A stretch of 64,000 nucleotides of DNA. Source: Verrucomicrobiota bacterium (GTDB lineage Bacteria; Verrucomicrobiota; Verrucomicrobiia; Limisphaerales; PALSA-1396). The stretch's first letter is position 1. The number at the start of each line of letters is the position of its first letter. Below, piece after piece: positions 11,746 to 17,707 of this stretch. Under the pieces are notes generated by a model that saw nothing but the letters and a program-made list of their open reading frames with translations, did not search any database and was not told the origin of the DNA. The position numbers were made by a program, and so were the translations under genes. The DNA lies in assembly GCA_016200005.1 (NCBI GenBank), contig JACQFP010000045.1:1-64000 (forward strand). The letters run 5' to 3'.

Positions 11746-14349
11746 ATGAATCGTGGTCAAACAACTTGCGCAGCAACGCCGGGTCGCGTCCAACCTGAGA
11801 GCGAAGCATTCCGCCTTCCCGAGTTGCTCGCTCCCGCTGGCGATTGGGAGTGCGCCAAGGCCGCCGTCGAGAACGGCGCGGACGCGATTTACTTTGGATT
11901 GGAAAAGTTCAATGCGCGGATGCGGGCGCACAATTTCACCGGTGCCGATCTTCCAAAGCTGATGGAGTTCCTTCACCGGCGCGGCGTGAAGGGCTACGTC
12001 ACGTTCAACACGCTCGTCTTCGAGAACGAGATGGCGGAGGCCGGGGAGCATCTCCGCACAATGATCGCCGCCGGGGTGGATGCCGCGATCGTGCAGGATG
12101 TGGGGATTTGCCGGCTCATCCGCTCGCTCTCGCCAGATTTTCCGATTCATGCCTCGACGCAGATGACGATCACCAGCGCGGCGGGCGTTGAATGTGCGCG
12201 CGAACTCGGCTGCAACCTCGTCGTGCTCGCACGGGAGTGTTCGATCAAGGAGGTTGAAAAGATTCGTGAAGCGCAGGTTTCCGTCTCTCAACCTTCAACC
12301 CTCAACTCTCAACTTCCGCTGGAAATCTTCGTCCATGGCGCGCTCTGCGTTGCCTACAGCGGCCAGTGTCTCACCAGCGAGGCGCTCGGCGGCCGTTCCG
12401 CCAATCGCGGCGAATGTGCCCAAGCGTGCCGCATGCCCTACGAATTGATCTCCGACGGCAAACCAGTTCCGCTCGGCGACCGAAAATATCTCCTCAGCCC
12501 GCAGGACCTGGCGGGACTGGAAGTGTTGCGCGAGTTGGTTCGCACCGGAGTGGCTTCGCTGAAGATTGAAGGCCGGCTCAAGACGCCGGAATACGTGGCG
12601 AACATCACGCGGATTTACCGCAAGGCGTTGGATGATTTACGATTTACGAATTACGATTTGCGCGACGACCACAATGACGCTCGTCAATCGCAAATCGTAA
12701 ATCGTAAATACGAAATGGAAATGGCCTTCTCGCGCGGCCTTTACACCGGCTGGCTCGGCGGCATCAACAACCAGGAGCTTGTTCACGCCCGCTTCGGCAA
12801 GAAACGCGGGGTTTATCTTGGCGAAGTGCAGAAAGTCTTGCGCGACGCCGTAATCGTGAAACTCGAAGGTTCCCTCAAACCCGGTGACGGCGTGGTGTTC
12901 GACGCGGGCCATCCGGACCAGGAAGAAGAGGGGGGGCGGGTGTATGAAATCAGAAACCCGAAATCCGAAATCCCAAACGCGGAGCTACGCTTCGGTCACG
13001 ATGACATTGATTACTCGCGTGTTCACAGCGGCGACAAGTTGTGGAAGACGGACGATCCAGAGTTGAATCGCAGATTGCGCCAGAGTTTTGCGGGCGAGGC
13101 GCCGAAGTTTCAGCGACCCATTGAAATGGAAGTGCACGGGGTCGTCGGCAAGCCGCTCACCCTGATCGCGCGGGATGAGTTTGGCCACGTGGCAAAGTTA
13201 GAATCCGCCATGCCGTCGACGCAGGCGGAAAAGCAGCCTCTGACAACGAATCGACTGCGTGAACAACTTGGCCGGCTTGGCGGAACACCATTTAAGCTCG
13301 GCGAACTGGAAAATAATCTAGCCGATGATGTGATGCTGCCGGTCAGCGAGTTGAATCGGTTGCGGCGCGAGGCGGTGGTGGAATTGGAACGACAGCGCAC
13401 GCAGCCCAAGCGGTGGATGCTGACTGGAAAATCCGAAATCCGAAATCCGAAATCCGAAATTGACCAGAGCCTCCTCACGTCGGCTGCTACGAACGCGGAG
13501 TTGATCGTCCTCGTCCGCAACCTCGCGCAGCTCGAAGCCGCGCTGAAGTGCGGCGTCACTACGATCTATTGCGACTTCGAGAATCCGAAAAAATATCGCG
13601 AAGCCGTGGCCAGTGTGCGGGAGCGGAATCTCTCAACCCGCAACTCTCAACCCTCAACTATTTTCGTCGCTCCACCGAGGATTTTCAAAACGGGCGAAGA
13701 GTGGACGCTCCAGCAAGTCCGTTCATGCAACGCCGATGGCTACCTCGTCCGCAACTACGACCACCTGAAATTCTTCGCCAACGAACGGCGCGTTGGAGAT
13801 TTTTCGTTGAACATCGCGAATTCTTTGAGCGCGGACTATTTCAAGAACAAGTTTGGCCTGGAGCGCGTGACGGCGAGTTACGACTTGAATTTCCAGCAAC
13901 TTGAAGCGTTATTGCGGACCGCGCCGCCGGAATGGTTTGAGATCACGATTCATCAGCATATCCCGATGTTTCACATGGAGCACTGCGTCTTCTGCGCGTT
14001 TCTTTCGAGCGGCAAGGACTATCGCGATTGCGGTCGCCCGTGCGATGTGCACGACTTGAAGCTCCGCGACCGCGTGGGCGCGGAGCATCCGGTGAAGGCG
14101 GACGTGGGCTGTCGAAACACCGTGTTCAACTCGCTGGCGCAAACCGGCGCCGAGTATGTGGAGCGAATGTTGGTGCTGGGCGTGCGCCACTTCCGCGTAG
14201 AGTTTGTGAATGAAACGCCGGAGCAAGTCACGCAGACCGTCACGAAGTATCGCCAACTGTTGCGCGGCGAAATTACCGGCTCACAACTTTGGCGAGAGTT
14301 GAAATTGTTCAATCAACTTGGCGTGACGCGCGGGCAGATGGCGGGTTAG
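11746..14349 (+). CDS. U32-family peptidase / RlhA-like protein with five repeat-encoded inserts
   Basis: About 867 residues. The N-terminal U32 domain has LPELLAPAGDWECAKAAVEN, GADAIYFGLEKFNAR, HASTQMTITSAAG and the Cys-rich segment HGALCVAYSGQCL, NRGECAQACRMPYEL. A middle part follows, and then a second U32-like half ending in HMEHCVFCAFLSSG and DCGRPCDVHDLKLRDR. E. coli RlhA (a 23S rRNA C2501 hydroxylation factor) has this long double architecture with cysteines that bind Fe-S; the assignment here is by architecture only. Five short repeats from three families lie inside the gene, all in frame. The ATG at 11746 is chosen; one eight codons upstream is also open and the gene overlaps the 5' part of the opposite-strand frame. 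Confidence 0.88.
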   Translation: MNRGQTTCAATPGRVQPESEAFRLPELLAPAGDWECAKAAVENGADAIYFGLEKFNARMRAHNFTGADLPKLMEFLHRRGVKGYVTFNTLVFENEMAEAGEHLRTMIAAGVDAAIVQDVGICRLIRSLSPDFPIHASTQMTITSAAGVECARELGCNLVVLARECSIKEVEKIREAQVSVSQPSTLNSQLPLEIFVHGALCVAYSGQCLTSEALGGRSANRGECAQACRMPYELISDGKPVPLGDRKYLLSPQDLAGLEVLRELVRTGVASLKIEGRLKTPEYVANITRIYRKALDDLRFTNYDLRDDHNDARQSQIVNRKYEMEMAFSRGLYTGWLGGINNQELVHARFGKKRGVYLGEVQKVLRDAVIVKLEGSLKPGDGVVFDAGHPDQEEEGGRVYEIRNPKSEIPNAELRFGHDDIDYSRVHSGDKLWKTDDPELNRRLRQSFAGEAPKFQRPIEMEVHGVVGKPLTLIARDEFGHVAKLESAMPSTQAEKQPLTTNRLREQLGRLGGTPFKLGELENNLADDVMLPVSELNRLRREAVVELERQRTQPKRWMLTGKSEIRNPKSEIDQSLLTSAATNAELIVLVRNLAQLEAALKCGVTTIYCDFENPKKYREAVASVRERNLSTRNSQPSTIFVAPPRIFKTGEEWTLQQVRSCNADGYLVRNYDHLKFFANERRVGDFSLNIANSLSADYFKNKFGLERVTASYDLNFQQLEALLRTAPPEWFEITIHQHIPMFHMEHCVFCAFLSSGKDYRDCGRPCDVHDLKLRDRVGAEHPVKADVGCRNTVFNSLAQTGAEYVERMLVLGVRHFRVEFVNETPEQVTQTVTKYRQLLRGEITGSQLWRELKLFNQLGVTRGQMAG
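12285..12315. repeat. Iterated CTCAAC repeat in the U32 gene (first copy)
   Basis: TCTCAACCTTCAACCC followed by TCAACTCTCAACTT is read as VSQPSTLNSQLP within the U32 domain, between EKIREAQ and the conserved LEIFVHGALC. Same family as 13630-13660. Confidence 0.8.
12634..12710. repeat. Inverted GATTTAC-family repeat in the U32 gene
   Basis: The left arm GATTTACGATTTACGAATTA is mirrored by CAAATCGTAAATCGTAAATA around a 30-base spacer. It is read in frame as DDLRFTNYDLRDD ... QIVNRKYEM, between NITRIYRKAL and MAFSRGLYTGWLGG. It has the same build as the element in thiC. Confidence 0.85.
12945..12975. repeat. Iterated AAATCCG repeat in the U32 gene (first copy)
   Basis: GAAATCAGAAACCCG then AAATCCGAAATCCC is read as YEIRNPKSEIPN. 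It separates the GGRV end of a barrel-like segment from LRFGHDDIDY. Confidence 0.8.
13427..13461. repeat. Iterated AAATCCG repeat in the U32 gene (second copy)
   Basis: Four tandem AAATCCG units are read as GKSEIRNPKSEI between RQRTQPKRWMLT and DQSLLTSAATNAEL. The units are nearly perfect, which suggests a recent origin. Confidence 0.85.
13630..13660. repeat. Iterated CTCAAC repeat in the U32 gene (second copy)
   Basis: CTCTCAACCCGCAACTCTC then AACCCTCAACTA is read as LSTRNSQPSTIF between ASVRERN and VAPPRIFKTGEEW. Confidence 0.8.
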
Positions 14350-15338
14350 CGGCGGTTGCGCGCCAGTTGCTTCGCCAACCGGATCGCCGAGATCATGCTG
14401 GAAGGATTCGCCTTGTTCTGTCCTGCGATGTCGTAAGCCGTGCCATGGTCTGGCGAGGTGCGGATGAACGGCAGGCCGAGTGTCCAGTTCACGCCGGTTT
14501 CGAAGGCGATCAACTTCAGCGGTGCCAATCCTTGATCGTGATACATCGCTACGACCACGTCGTAATCACCGCGAAAAGCGTGGTGAAACAATGCGTCCGC
14601 GGCGAAGGGGCCGGCAACGTTTAGTAGCCGTCGCCGAGCAGCGTCAACGGCGGGAGCGATGATGGTTTGTTCCTCATCGCCGAGTTCGCCGCCTTCGCCG
14701 GCGTGCGGATTGAGGCCGCAGACACCGACGCGCGCGCGCGACAATCCAAGATCCCGGCAGGCTTGTGACGCCAGTTCAATCGCCAGTTCGACTTTTGTCT
14801 GCGTCAATTGCCCGGCGACCAATTTCAAAGGCAGGTGGGTCGTCGCCAGCACAACGCGCAGCCAGCGGCCGCGGTCATCATGACCAAGCAGCATCATGGC
14901 GGTGCGCTCCGTGCCCGCGAGTTGGGAAAGAAATTCAGTCTGGCCAATGAACGGTTGGCCGCTGCGCAGGATCGATTCCTTGTTGAGGGGCGCGGTGACC
15001 AACGCGTCCAGTTCGTGGCGCAGACAACGCTCGGCACCGTCCTTCAACCACGCCAACGCCGCCCGTGCTGCGGCCGGTGAACCGGCGGTCAAACCGGCGG
15101 GCAGCGGTTCAGGCAGGGGGTTGTGCAGAATGAAGCGGTCGCCCGCGTTCGCGTCGGAAAGCAGTTGGAGCGGTAGCTTCAGACCGAGCTGGTCATTGAG
15201 TCGGCGGGCGCATTCCAGGTCTCCGATCAACAAGTAACGAGTGTCATCCAGTCGTGATTCCGACGCCAACGCCTTGAGCGTGACCTCGGGTCCAATGCCG
15301 GTCACGTCGCCCAATGAAATGCCGATCCAGCCAGTCAT
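14346..15338 (-). CDS. pdxA: 4-hydroxythreonine-4-phosphate dehydrogenase PdxA
   Basis: A 330-residue cytosolic, metal-dependent, NAD-linked dehydrogenase of the DXP-dependent pyridoxal phosphate pathway. Family hallmarks are seen at the start (ISLGDVTGIGPEVTLKAL), at PLNKESILRSGQPFIGQTEF, at GVCGLNPHAGEGGELGDEE, and at the metal/substrate region YDVVVAMYHDQGLAPLK followed by LPFIRTSPDHGTAYDIAG. Its 3' end overlaps the convergent U32 gene by four bases. Length is normal. Confidence 0.97.
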   Translation of the reverse strand: MTGWIGISLGDVTGIGPEVTLKALASESRLDDTRYLLIGDLECARRLNDQLGLKLPLQLLSDANAGDRFILHNPLPEPLPAGLTAGSPAAARAALAWLKDGAERCLRHELDALVTAPLNKESILRSGQPFIGQTEFLSQLAGTERTAMMLLGHDDRGRWLRVVLATTHLPLKLVAGQLTQTKVELAIELASQACRDLGLSRARVGVCGLNPHAGEGGELGDEEQTIIAPAVDAARRRLLNVAGPFAADALFHHAFRGDYDVVVAMYHDQGLAPLKLIAFETGVNWTLGLPFIRTSPDHGTAYDIAGQNKANPSSMISAIRLAKQLARNRR

Positions 15339-15390: not shown

Positions 15391-15428
15391 TGAAAGTTTC
15401 ACGTTTCACGCTTCACGTTTCGCGTTTC
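15391..15428. repeat. Iterated TTTCACG repeat between pdxA and the foldase gene
   Basis: Units TTTCACG, TTTCACGC, TTCACG and TTTCGCG run up to the stop codon of the downstream-listed peptidyl-prolyl isomerase gene. Another family of the short iterated repeats, here intergenic. Confidence 0.7.
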
Positions 15429-16404
15429 AAAAATATCTGACGAACGATTTGTTCTTCAGGCGATCGATCCACTTCTTTTGCAGCCGGGCGCGTTCCTGCA
15501 CCAGGAGGTTCTTCTCAATTTCATCGCGGACTTCACCGAGCGACTTGGTGTGAGCCGGACGCCGGTCCTCCACGAGCATCAGGTAACAAGCGTCAGCGGT
15601 CTCAATCACCCCACTGCGCTGGCCGGCTTTGAGCGCGAAGGCGACGTCGAACAATTCCTTCCGCAACACCGGCGAACCGTCCTTGTTAAACTTTTCCACC
15701 CAACCCCAATCGCCTCCTTGTTTGGCCTGCGAGCCTTCGGAATGAATCGTCGCCATTTCAGCGAACGAGGCTCCCTCTTCGATCTTGGCCAGGATTTCCT
15801 GCGCCAGCTTTTTGGTCGCACCCGCATCATCAGACGAAGCACGGTTCAGCACAATCATGCGCAGCTTGACCTGGTCCTCGACTTTGAAATCGTCCTTGTG
15901 CTGGACGTAATATGTTTCGATTTTGTGCGGGGAAATGATGATGGCCGAAGAAATATTCTTCGCCCGGAGCGCCTCAATGATGAACTGTTCGCGAACCCGT
16001 TGGCGAAAAGTTTCAGACGTGATGCCCTCGGCTTGAAGGGTCTTGGTCAGAGTCATCCGGTCGCCGTAACGTTTGCGGATGCGATCCTGGATTTCTTCGT
16101 CGATGATGCTTTCGGGCAGATTGTAACCGGCGGTCTTGAAATCGTGCAAAATGAGTTGGTGCTCCACGAGTAGTTCGGTGCGGTTCTCTTTGAGCTTGCC
16201 GACCTTTTCCTCAAGAAGTTTAGGCTGGGTGCGGTACTGTCGTATCAATAAATCGACTTCGGGGGCGACCGAACTTTCCACCTCGTCCATTGTAACGATG
16301 GCGTCGTTGACGATCACGGCAATGGCGTTCACCAATTCCGCCCGGACACCTGGACCAGAGGCAAGAATAATTCCGGTCAACAGCAGGATGTAAAGAATTC
16401 TCAT
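15427..16404 (-). CDS. Periplasmic parvulin-type peptidyl-prolyl isomerase (SurA-like)
   Basis: About 325 residues with a signal peptide (MRILYILLLTGIILASGPGVRAE). A SurA-type N-terminal helical region (NAIAVIVNDAIVTMDEVESS ... VEHQLILHDF) precedes one rotamase domain (KLRMIVLNRASSDD, GASFAEMATIHSEGSQAKQGG, WGWVEKFNKDGS, LVEDRRPAHTKSLGEVRDEI). The family assists outer-membrane protein folding. A TTG two codons upstream is an alternative start. One parvulin domain instead of the two in E. coli SurA. It lies behind pdxA in the same direction. Confidence 0.9.
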   Translation of the reverse strand: MRILYILLLTGIILASGPGVRAELVNAIAVIVNDAIVTMDEVESSVAPEVDLLIRQYRTQPKLLEEKVGKLKENRTELLVEHQLILHDFKTAGYNLPESIIDEEIQDRIRKRYGDRMTLTKTLQAEGITSETFRQRVREQFIIEALRAKNISSAIIISPHKIETYYVQHKDDFKVEDQVKLRMIVLNRASSDDAGATKKLAQEILAKIEEGASFAEMATIHSEGSQAKQGGDWGWVEKFNKDGSPVLRKELFDVAFALKAGQRSGVIETADACYLMLVEDRRPAHTKSLGEVRDEIEKNLLVQERARLQKKWIDRLKNKSFVRYF

Positions 16405-16531
16405 GCGCAATATGCTTGAGACTAAGGAACGTTCCTGTTCGGGTCAAGAAACGTACAGAGGGAATTTCTGTCGCCTTTTGCGATCCGAGATTCAACGTTG
16501 ACGCCGGGCGGCGCTCTGTTAGCTTCATTCC

Positions 16532-16618
16532 ATGAATTCAGGCACTCCTCGATTTAGCAGCGCGTGGGCCGGGATGTTCTATCATCTCCCGGCCCGTTGC
16601 TGCTTGTGGCTGTGTTAG
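16532..16618 (+). CDS. Candidate attenuator leader peptide (28 residues) before the DAHP synthase
   Basis: ATG at 16532 opens MNSGTPRFSSAWAGMFYHLP and eight more residues ending in LWLC before TAG at 16616. It holds Phe8, Trp12, Phe16-Tyr17 and Trp26, an enrichment of all three aromatic amino acids just ahead of the first gene of aromatic biosynthesis. No good Shine-Dalgarno site is seen, but most genes in this window lack one. The peptide is a prediction from position and content only. Confidence 0.5.
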   Translation: MNSGTPRFSSAWAGMFYHLPARCCLWLC

Positions 16619-16664
16619 ACTAAACACTCAACCTTTGCCGCAGGTCGCCACCTGCGGTTTTTTT
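16565..16664 (+). promoter_or_regulatory. Candidate transcription attenuator of the DAHP synthase gene
   Basis: In order: hairpin A, GGGCCGGGA paired with TCCCGGCCC (about 16566-16595), overlapping the Trp12 and Phe-Tyr codons; the segment CTTGTGGC (16603-16610), which covers the last Trp codon; and GCCGCAGG (16637-16644), the 5' arm of the terminator. CTTGTGGC can pair with GCCGCAGG (eight pairs, two of them G-U), which would block the terminator. A ribosome stalled at Phe16-Tyr17 would leave that pairing free; one reaching the stop codon would cover it. This fits amino-acid-dependent attenuation, but is inferred from sequence alone. Confidence 0.5.
16638..16664 (+). terminator. Rho-independent terminator in the DAHP synthase leader
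   Basis: CCGCAGGT pairs with ACCTGCGG around the loop CGCC and is followed by seven T residues (16658-16664). It lies 30 bases before the ATG of the DAHP synthase gene, with only the short leader frame before it in this direction, so it is more likely an attenuator than the end of another gene. Confidence 0.88.
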
Positions 16665-16693: not shown

Positions 16694-17707
16694 ATGATCA
16701 TTGTCCTTCGCCCGAACATTCCGAAAAAAGAAGAAGCCGCCGTGCTTAAGGAAATCCGCAAGCTCGGCTACAAACCGCACATCATGCGAGGAGTGGCGCG
16801 GACGGTCATCGGTGCCATCGGCGACGAGCGCACCCACCAAAGCCTGGAAACCCTCACCTCCTGGAAGCAGGTGGAGAGCGTCATGCCGGTGCAGAAACGT
16901 TACAAACTGGTCAGCCGCGAGGCGCATCGCACCGGTTCGACCATCAATGTGCGCGGGAACATCATCGGCGGAAAGAAAGTCCAGATCATGGCCGGACCTT
17001 GCTCGGTGGAGAGTGAAAGGCAACTGCTCTCCACGGCCAAAGCCGTGAAGAAGGCCGGCGCGACCATTCTGCGCGGCGGCGCTTTCAAACCGCGCACCTC
17101 CCCCTACGAATTCCAGGGACTCGGCGAGAAGGGATTGAAGCTGCTGGCGAAGGCGCGCCACGAAACCGGCCTGGCCATCATCACCGAACTGCTTTCCGAA
17201 GACCACGCCGACATGATCGCCGAATACGCTGACATCATTCAGATCGGCACACGCAACGCCCAAAACTTTCAACTGCTCATCGCCGCCGCACGCACCGGCA
17301 AACCCGTCTTGCTCAAGCGCGGCCTTTCGATGCGCATTGAGGAATGGATGCTGGCCGGTGAATACATCCTGGCCAACGAAAATCCGAATTTAATGTTTTG
17401 CGAACGCGGCATTCGCACCTTCGAATCTTACACGCGCAACACGCTCGATCTGTCCACCATTCCCATCATCAAACAGGAATCGCACTGTCCCATCGTGATC
17501 GATCCCAGCCAGGGCGCGGGCCGCTCCGACCTGGTGTTCGCCATGTGCAAGGGCGCCGTCGCCATGGGCGCGGACGCGCTATTGATCGAAGTGCATCCCA
17601 ACCCGGCCGAGGCTTGGAGTGATGGCGCGCAACAACTTTCCCTCGATGGCTTTGCCAGGCTGATGCAGGAGTTGAAGCCATTCATCAGCGCAGCCGGTCG
17701 GGAGTAA
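16694..17707 (+). CDS. aroF: 3-deoxy-7-phosphoheptulonate (DAHP) synthase, AroF/AroG-beta type
   Basis: A 337-residue cytosolic enzyme that joins phosphoenolpyruvate and erythrose 4-phosphate, the first step of the shikimate pathway. It has an N-terminal ferredoxin-like regulatory domain (residues 1 to about 70, MIIVLRPNIPKKEEAAVLKE) as in Thermotoga-type enzymes. The catalytic barrel follows with IMAGPCSVES, GAFKPRTSPYEFQGLG, QIGTRNAQNF, KRGLSM, VIDPSQGAGRSD and LIEVHPNPAEAWSDGAQ. The start follows a leader with terminator (see attenuator). aroE and aroC are present elsewhere in the window, so the pathway genes are dispersed. Confidence 0.96.
   Translation: MIIVLRPNIPKKEEAAVLKEIRKLGYKPHIMRGVARTVIGAIGDERTHQSLETLTSWKQVESVMPVQKRYKLVSREAHRTGSTINVRGNIIGGKKVQIMAGPCSVESERQLLSTAKAVKKAGATILRGGAFKPRTSPYEFQGLGEKGLKLLAKARHETGLAIITELLSEDHADMIAEYADIIQIGTRNAQNFQLLIAAARTGKPVLLKRGLSMRIEEWMLAGEYILANENPNLMFCERGIRTFESYTRNTLDLSTIPIIKQESHCPIVIDPSQGAGRSDLVFAMCKGAVAMGADALLIEVHPNPAEAWSDGAQQLSLDGFARLMQELKPFISAAGRE

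Follow-up and report, generated by a model that had tools for sequence, protein, structure and literature searches.

A very probable ribosome-mediated transcription attenuator of the DAHP synthase gene, conserved across the Limisphaerales (Verrucomicrobiota)

The window, by which we mean the whole stretch of 64,000 nucleotides analysed here, carries on its forward strand a DAHP synthase gene, whose product joins an N-terminal ferredoxin-like domain (PF18152) to a DAHP_synth_1 domain (PF00793). Divergent from this gene and its leader, on the minus strand, lie a gene for a SurA-like peptidyl-prolyl isomerase (15427-16410) and, next after it, pdxA (14346-15338). A first-pass annotation had described a short leader frame with aromatic codons, a terminator and a competing antiterminator upstream of the DAHP synthase gene, and every one of these parts was found where it had been placed. 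The features of the region are as follows.

16498..16503, + strand: -35 box, TTGACG; exact TTGAC in 103 of the 105 leader-bearing relatives
16520..16525, + strand: -10 box, TAGCTT, after a 16-nt spacer; T in 95, A in 99 and the final T in 92 of 103 relatives
16532..16618, + strand: leader ORF of 28 codons, MNSGTPRFSSAWAGMFYHLPARCCLWLC followed by the stop; conserved in 105 of 137 orthologous upstream regions
16553..16582, + strand: putative control codons Phe8 (TTT, 16553-16555), Trp12 (TGG, 16565-16567), Phe16 (TTC, 16577-16579) and Tyr17 (TAT, 16580-16582), at the aromatic peak seen in relatives; by folding, a ribosome here would leave the antiterminator arm free
16557..16603, + strand: hairpin around the control codons in the MFE fold; comparable hairpins in many relatives, with aromatic codons in or near the loop
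16603..16610, + strand: predicted antiterminator 5' arm (segment 2), CTTGTGGC; pairs with 16637-16644 at P 0.9-0.98 with the ribosome at codons 5-20; conserved as CCTGCG/CTTGCGG near the leader stop
16637..16645, + strand: predicted shared arm (segment 3), antiterminator 3' arm and terminator 5' arm at once, from folding; covaries with both partners
16650..16664, + strand: terminator 3' arm (16650-16658) and T run (16658-16664); conserved as CCTGCGG-T6
16694..17707, + strand: DAHP synthase gene, the attenuator's predicted target; NF006421/TIGR01361 above cut-off, PF18152 and PF00793

The leader opens with an ATG at 16532 and closes with a TAG at 16616-16618. Eighteen bases past this stop begins the terminator hairpin, and the ATG of DAHP synthase (16694) stands 29 bases past the end of the T run (16664), so that a candidate intrinsic terminator separates leader and gene, as expected of an attenuator. 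The stem formed by 16637-16645 and 16650-16658, described in the first pass as perfect, is so except for its closing G-U pair. The proposed alternative pairing is also present: CTTGTGGC (16603-16610) is complementary to GCCGCAGG (16637-16644), two G-U pairs included.

We assessed the conservation of this arrangement in the order Limisphaerales, which named GTDB records describe as Pedosphaera-like Verrucomicrobiota, and in which orthologs of the DAHP synthase (E below 1e-100) occur in 147 of 293 genomes. Their upstream regions, made non-redundant, numbered 139, and the 137 that were long enough were searched for a -35-like word, an ATG or GTG 27-47 nt later, an ORF of 15-50 codons and a hairpin with a T run. 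Promoter, leader and terminator were found together in 105 of the 137 regions. Of 137 reverse complements the same filter let 5 through, and in three sets of 137 dinucleotide shuffles it let 9, 10 and 16 through; these control passes had far weaker hairpins and an aromatic fraction of 0.07-0.09 versus 0.25 in the true set. About a quarter of the regions failed the filter; some of these are contig ends or divergent leaders, and some lineages are clear losses. A tree built from 95 DAHP synthases calls for about six changes of the element, a history that several losses would explain most simply.

Individual genomes illustrate how the region may change. In one relative (L005) the 60 bases upstream of the gene contain neither leader nor terminator, and a similar promoter abuts the gene, an apparent loss of the attenuator. 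In two others (L015 and L060) the roughly 60-110 bases upstream of DAHP synthase retain promoter and terminator, the leader is deleted and a short ORF crosses the terminator. About half of the order's genomes do not have this DAHP synthase at E 1e-100; when 15 of them were checked, seven had a class II DAHP synthase (PF01474) and the rest had neither enzyme. A by-eye check upstream of these class II genes found nothing obvious.

The promoter is conserved too, with the consensus TTGAC-16-TAnnnT and, when anchored on TTGAC, a spacer of 16 nt in 79 of 103 cases. The gap between the -10 box and the start codon is 6-9 nt in 84 of 103 relatives and six bases in the window; therefore, transcription is predicted to begin at the start codon or within a few bases of it, making the leader ORF leaderless. 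A transcription start after 16640, against which the first-pass annotation had set its reading, finds no support in a promoter so placed. Shine-Dalgarno-like words are below shuffle level, occurring in 2 of 105 leaders compared with 6.6 expected. Low Shine-Dalgarno content has been reported for some Verrucomicrobia (PMC10783764), and C. glutamicum ilvBNC is a known case of a leader peptide that lacks a ribosome binding site (Morbach et al. 2000, as cited in PMC4046766). The sequence thus points to a short leader ORF between a promoter and the structural gene, again as in known attenuators.

Codons for the pathway's end products are overrepresented in the leader frame. Aromatic codons make up 25.9% of it in the Limisphaerales relatives, compared with 7.3% and 9.9% off frame, and they peak about 10-14 codons upstream of the stop, with the top at 11-13, in leaders of some 20-32 codons; at least three aromatics fall at codons 9-16 before the stop in 92 of 105 leaders. 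The window leader, with five aromatic codons, is poorer than most. Close pairs speak for the attenuator too: of the differing codons that involve an aromatic, 39% still encode an aromatic amino acid, and of the other differing codons 24% are synonymous. The first-pass annotation named the last Trp codon of the window leader along with the sensing codons. The cluster of Phe, Trp and Phe-Tyr is placed as sensors would be, the arm being free with a ribosome there, but the last Trp is not: Trp26 (16607-16609) sits within the antiterminator arm, and because a ribosome stalled on it would mask that arm and favor termination, we take it to be a component of the pairing arm rather than a sensor.

The element might respond to a single one of the three amino acids, for example Phe, with the Tyr and Trp codons as bystanders. 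Phe is indeed the commonest leader aromatic (13.9% of codons, against 6.7% for Tyr and 5.3% for Trp), and AroR of C. glutamicum has been reported to be responsive under Phe-limited conditions (PMC11802643). Yet all three aromatics are present in 92 of 105 leaders, with Tyr and Trp inside the same cluster, and we consider sensing of one amino acid rather unlikely, while still the most serious of the alternatives.

Folding suggests that the two structures are mutually exclusive and that the position of a ribosome could choose between them. The window transcript up to the terminator 5' arm outfolds nearly all shuffles (z -3.4). For a position scan, each of 102 leader RNAs was folded as far as the last base of the shared arm; the ribosome was modeled as a footprint, moved codon by codon, that blocks 11 nt past the A site. 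The probability that the shared arm is paired upstream was 0.86, 0.83, 0.65 and 0.41 with the ribosome 14, 12, 10 and 8 codons before the stop, the drop coming right after the aromatic cluster. At the stop it was 0.21 and the terminator formed with P 0.99, in agreement with the first-pass proposal that a ribosome reaching the leader stop would block the antiterminator. In the window leader the same scan gave 0.98 with the ribosome at codon 20 and 0.2 from codon 23. The modeling thus argues for an antiterminator that uses the terminator 5' arm, is free when the ribosome is at the control codons and is masked when it is at the stop.

With the full terminator in the model, equilibrium folding goes mostly to the terminator even if the ribosome is stalled (median 0.94; 0.78-0.98 in the window). 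Since such folding fails to separate the two states, we used the co-transcriptional version, in which the RNA ends at the shared arm, and antitermination must therefore rely on the order of transcription. This kinetic argument is the one assumed for classical attenuators. Without a ribosome, segment 2 pairs upstream in a 1:2 hairpin with a mean P of 0.53 over 102 leaders; in the window the free transcript prefers the antiterminator to this protected state (P 0.81). The hairpin at 16557-16603 may be an RNA polymerase pause or anti-antiterminator hairpin.

Comparison among relatives supplies a further line of evidence. The terminator is conserved as CCGCAGG-loop-CCTGCGG-T6, and the antiterminator arm near the leader stop has two main registers: as CCTGCGnnnnGGGCTGC it lies 22 nt ahead of the ORF end, as CTTGCGGCTGCG 16 nt ahead of it. 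Seven relatives (L085, L089, L113, L117, L186, L196 and L198) have CCGCCGG instead of CCGCAGG as the shared arm, and in all seven each of the two pairing partners, the terminator 3' arm and the antiterminator 5' arm, has the matching G. Because L113 is separate from L085, L089 and L117 in the DAHP synthase tree, with modest support, this compensated change may represent more than one event. In the first register, pairing and two-sided changes in the outer antiterminator stem exceed, at the predicted register, those in 300 of 300 reshufflings (24 cells vs a mean of 15); a weaker outer-stem excess is also seen at two neighbouring registers. The core complementarity is weak evidence by itself, since about 38% of composition-matched shuffles also achieve 6 of 7 pairs, and the argument therefore rests on register, compensation and position. 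The first-pass annotation had staked its reading on whether relatives keep the leader frame and the stems, and the comparison strongly favors the attenuator: frame, aromatic codons, terminator and antiterminator complementarity are conserved across the order, with compensatory changes, which supports classical attenuation.

ORF, promoter and terminator also form a complete small transcription unit conserved across the order, as would be expected if the ORF encoded a functional aromatic-rich microprotein and the hairpin were merely its own terminator. We find this highly improbable. The peptide is conserved solely at the aromatic cluster and at a C-terminal LRxGLx/LRLR, which encodes the pairing arm; that arm, which lies close to the stop, can pair with the terminator, and the two covary; and the leader peptide has no Pfam match. 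Equally little credence can be given to a switch read by a riboswitch ligand, a tRNA (T-box) or an RNA-binding protein. In its favor, the alternative stems are present whatever makes the choice; but the strongest constraint falls on codons and reading frame, and a search of the window with Rfam gave no match at gathering thresholds, whether to trp_leader, T-box or other described cis-regulatory RNAs, and no meaningful weak one (best E 0.23).

We conclude that the DAHP synthase gene is very probably controlled by a ribosome-mediated transcription attenuator. Transcription start, leader translation, stalling and in vivo termination, which we infer from the sequence, would then proceed as follows. 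RNA polymerase would begin the transcript on the leader start codon or right beside it, and the ribosome would initiate on an mRNA end that is leaderless or nearly so. When charged tRNA for Phe, Tyr or Trp runs low, translation would halt within the aromatic cluster, some 10-17 codons short of the stop. The segment 16603-16610 would then be available to 16637-16644 as it emerges, and the antiterminator formed by the two would keep the terminator from folding, so that the gene is transcribed. If aromatics are plentiful, the ribosome would reach the stop and cover 16603-16610, the terminator (16637-16658) would form and transcription would end at the T run.

Beyond the order the layout recurs with different sequences; these cases, selected for the greatest aromatic content close to a terminator, were tested less rigorously than the order-level set. 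Other families of the class have stems of wholly different sequence (CCGTCCCGC...GCGGGGCGG) and retain leader and layout (MKAISQHSTAVQAWYWFYFSQPCLRAAC; L250 and L255). Still other terminators accompany the leaders that precede DAHP synthase in other classes of the phylum, for example MNGKRTYFYFSYFRSPDTRFGSAQ (L345) and MSGKIYNSFYFYFGYRFYFRNGARCCMVGC (L343). Three genomes from other classes (L341, L344 and L345) have leaders that end in FRSPD.R.GSA and a long complementarity between GCCGGACACACGG and CCGCGTGTCCGGC, apparently an analogous attenuator with an unrelated stem sequence. Most other DAHP synthase copies inspected outside the order had no such leader. At trpE and pheA loci the same scan gave aromatic fractions of at most 0.14, and no comparable leader was seen ahead of trpE-type or pheA genes when 8 relatives were inspected. 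A covariance model built from a MAFFT alignment, which covers the terminator only (9 pairs), found no other strong match in the element's own genome; seven of its hits away from DAHP synthase were inspected as possible further targets and rejected, as they lie at gene ends or inside genes and none is beside an aromatic leader.

These observations suggest a more general scheme, in which we place slightly less than even confidence. A leaderless three-amino-acid attenuator at DAHP synthase may extend through the phylum, with the start codon as the first codon of the mRNA, the Phe/Tyr/Trp cluster acting as an OR gate, and entirely different stems from class to class within an unchanged layout. If the attenuator is real, Verrucomicrobiota would offer a well documented example of classical attenuation, one that places the first common aromatic step under the control of all three end products at once. 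It would also predict coupled transcription and translation on a leaderless mRNA in mostly uncultured bacteria. More than 100 natural variants, including compensated stems and independent losses, offer a good comparative set for the study of attenuator evolution.

The first-pass annotation knew of no such example in Verrucomicrobiota, and we found none described there in the literature searched, which included few subscription papers; its statement needs refinement in that attenuators of DAHP synthase genes are already known in other phyla. What is new is the widely conserved Limisphaerales element. The E. coli trp and pheA leaders (RF00513 for trp) likewise have control codons, an arm shared by antiterminator and terminator and a leader stop beside segment 2, but each senses one amino acid and controls other genes, and the Verrucomicrobiota element matched no Rfam family. 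The C. glutamicum ilvBNC attenuator (PMC11857589) shares the leader peptide without a ribosome binding site and the competition between antiterminator and terminator, but concerns branched-chain amino acids, a different enzyme and a different phylum. The closest precedents are two. In Acholeplasma, the uORFC-13-1 motif, a proposed attenuator of aroF (DAHP synthase) (PMC8632094), has, immediately before the gene, an intrinsic terminator and a uORF that contains one or more Phe codons; unlike the present element, its uORF has a ribosome binding site and at least one Phe codon without a mixed cluster, its structure differs, and it is limited to Acholeplasma and environmental sequences of unknown origin. 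In C. glutamicum, the aroR leader was found by RNA-seq (PMC4046766, PMC3890552), and aroF is attenuated through AroR, stalling raising transcription (Neshat et al. 2014, as summarised in PMC11802643). There, too, a leader peptide, with Phe-Tyr-Phe codons, precedes the DAHP synthase gene, but the phylum is different and the Verrucomicrobiota leaders hold larger clusters of all three aromatics. The likeness drawn here between the two systems is one of functional analogy.
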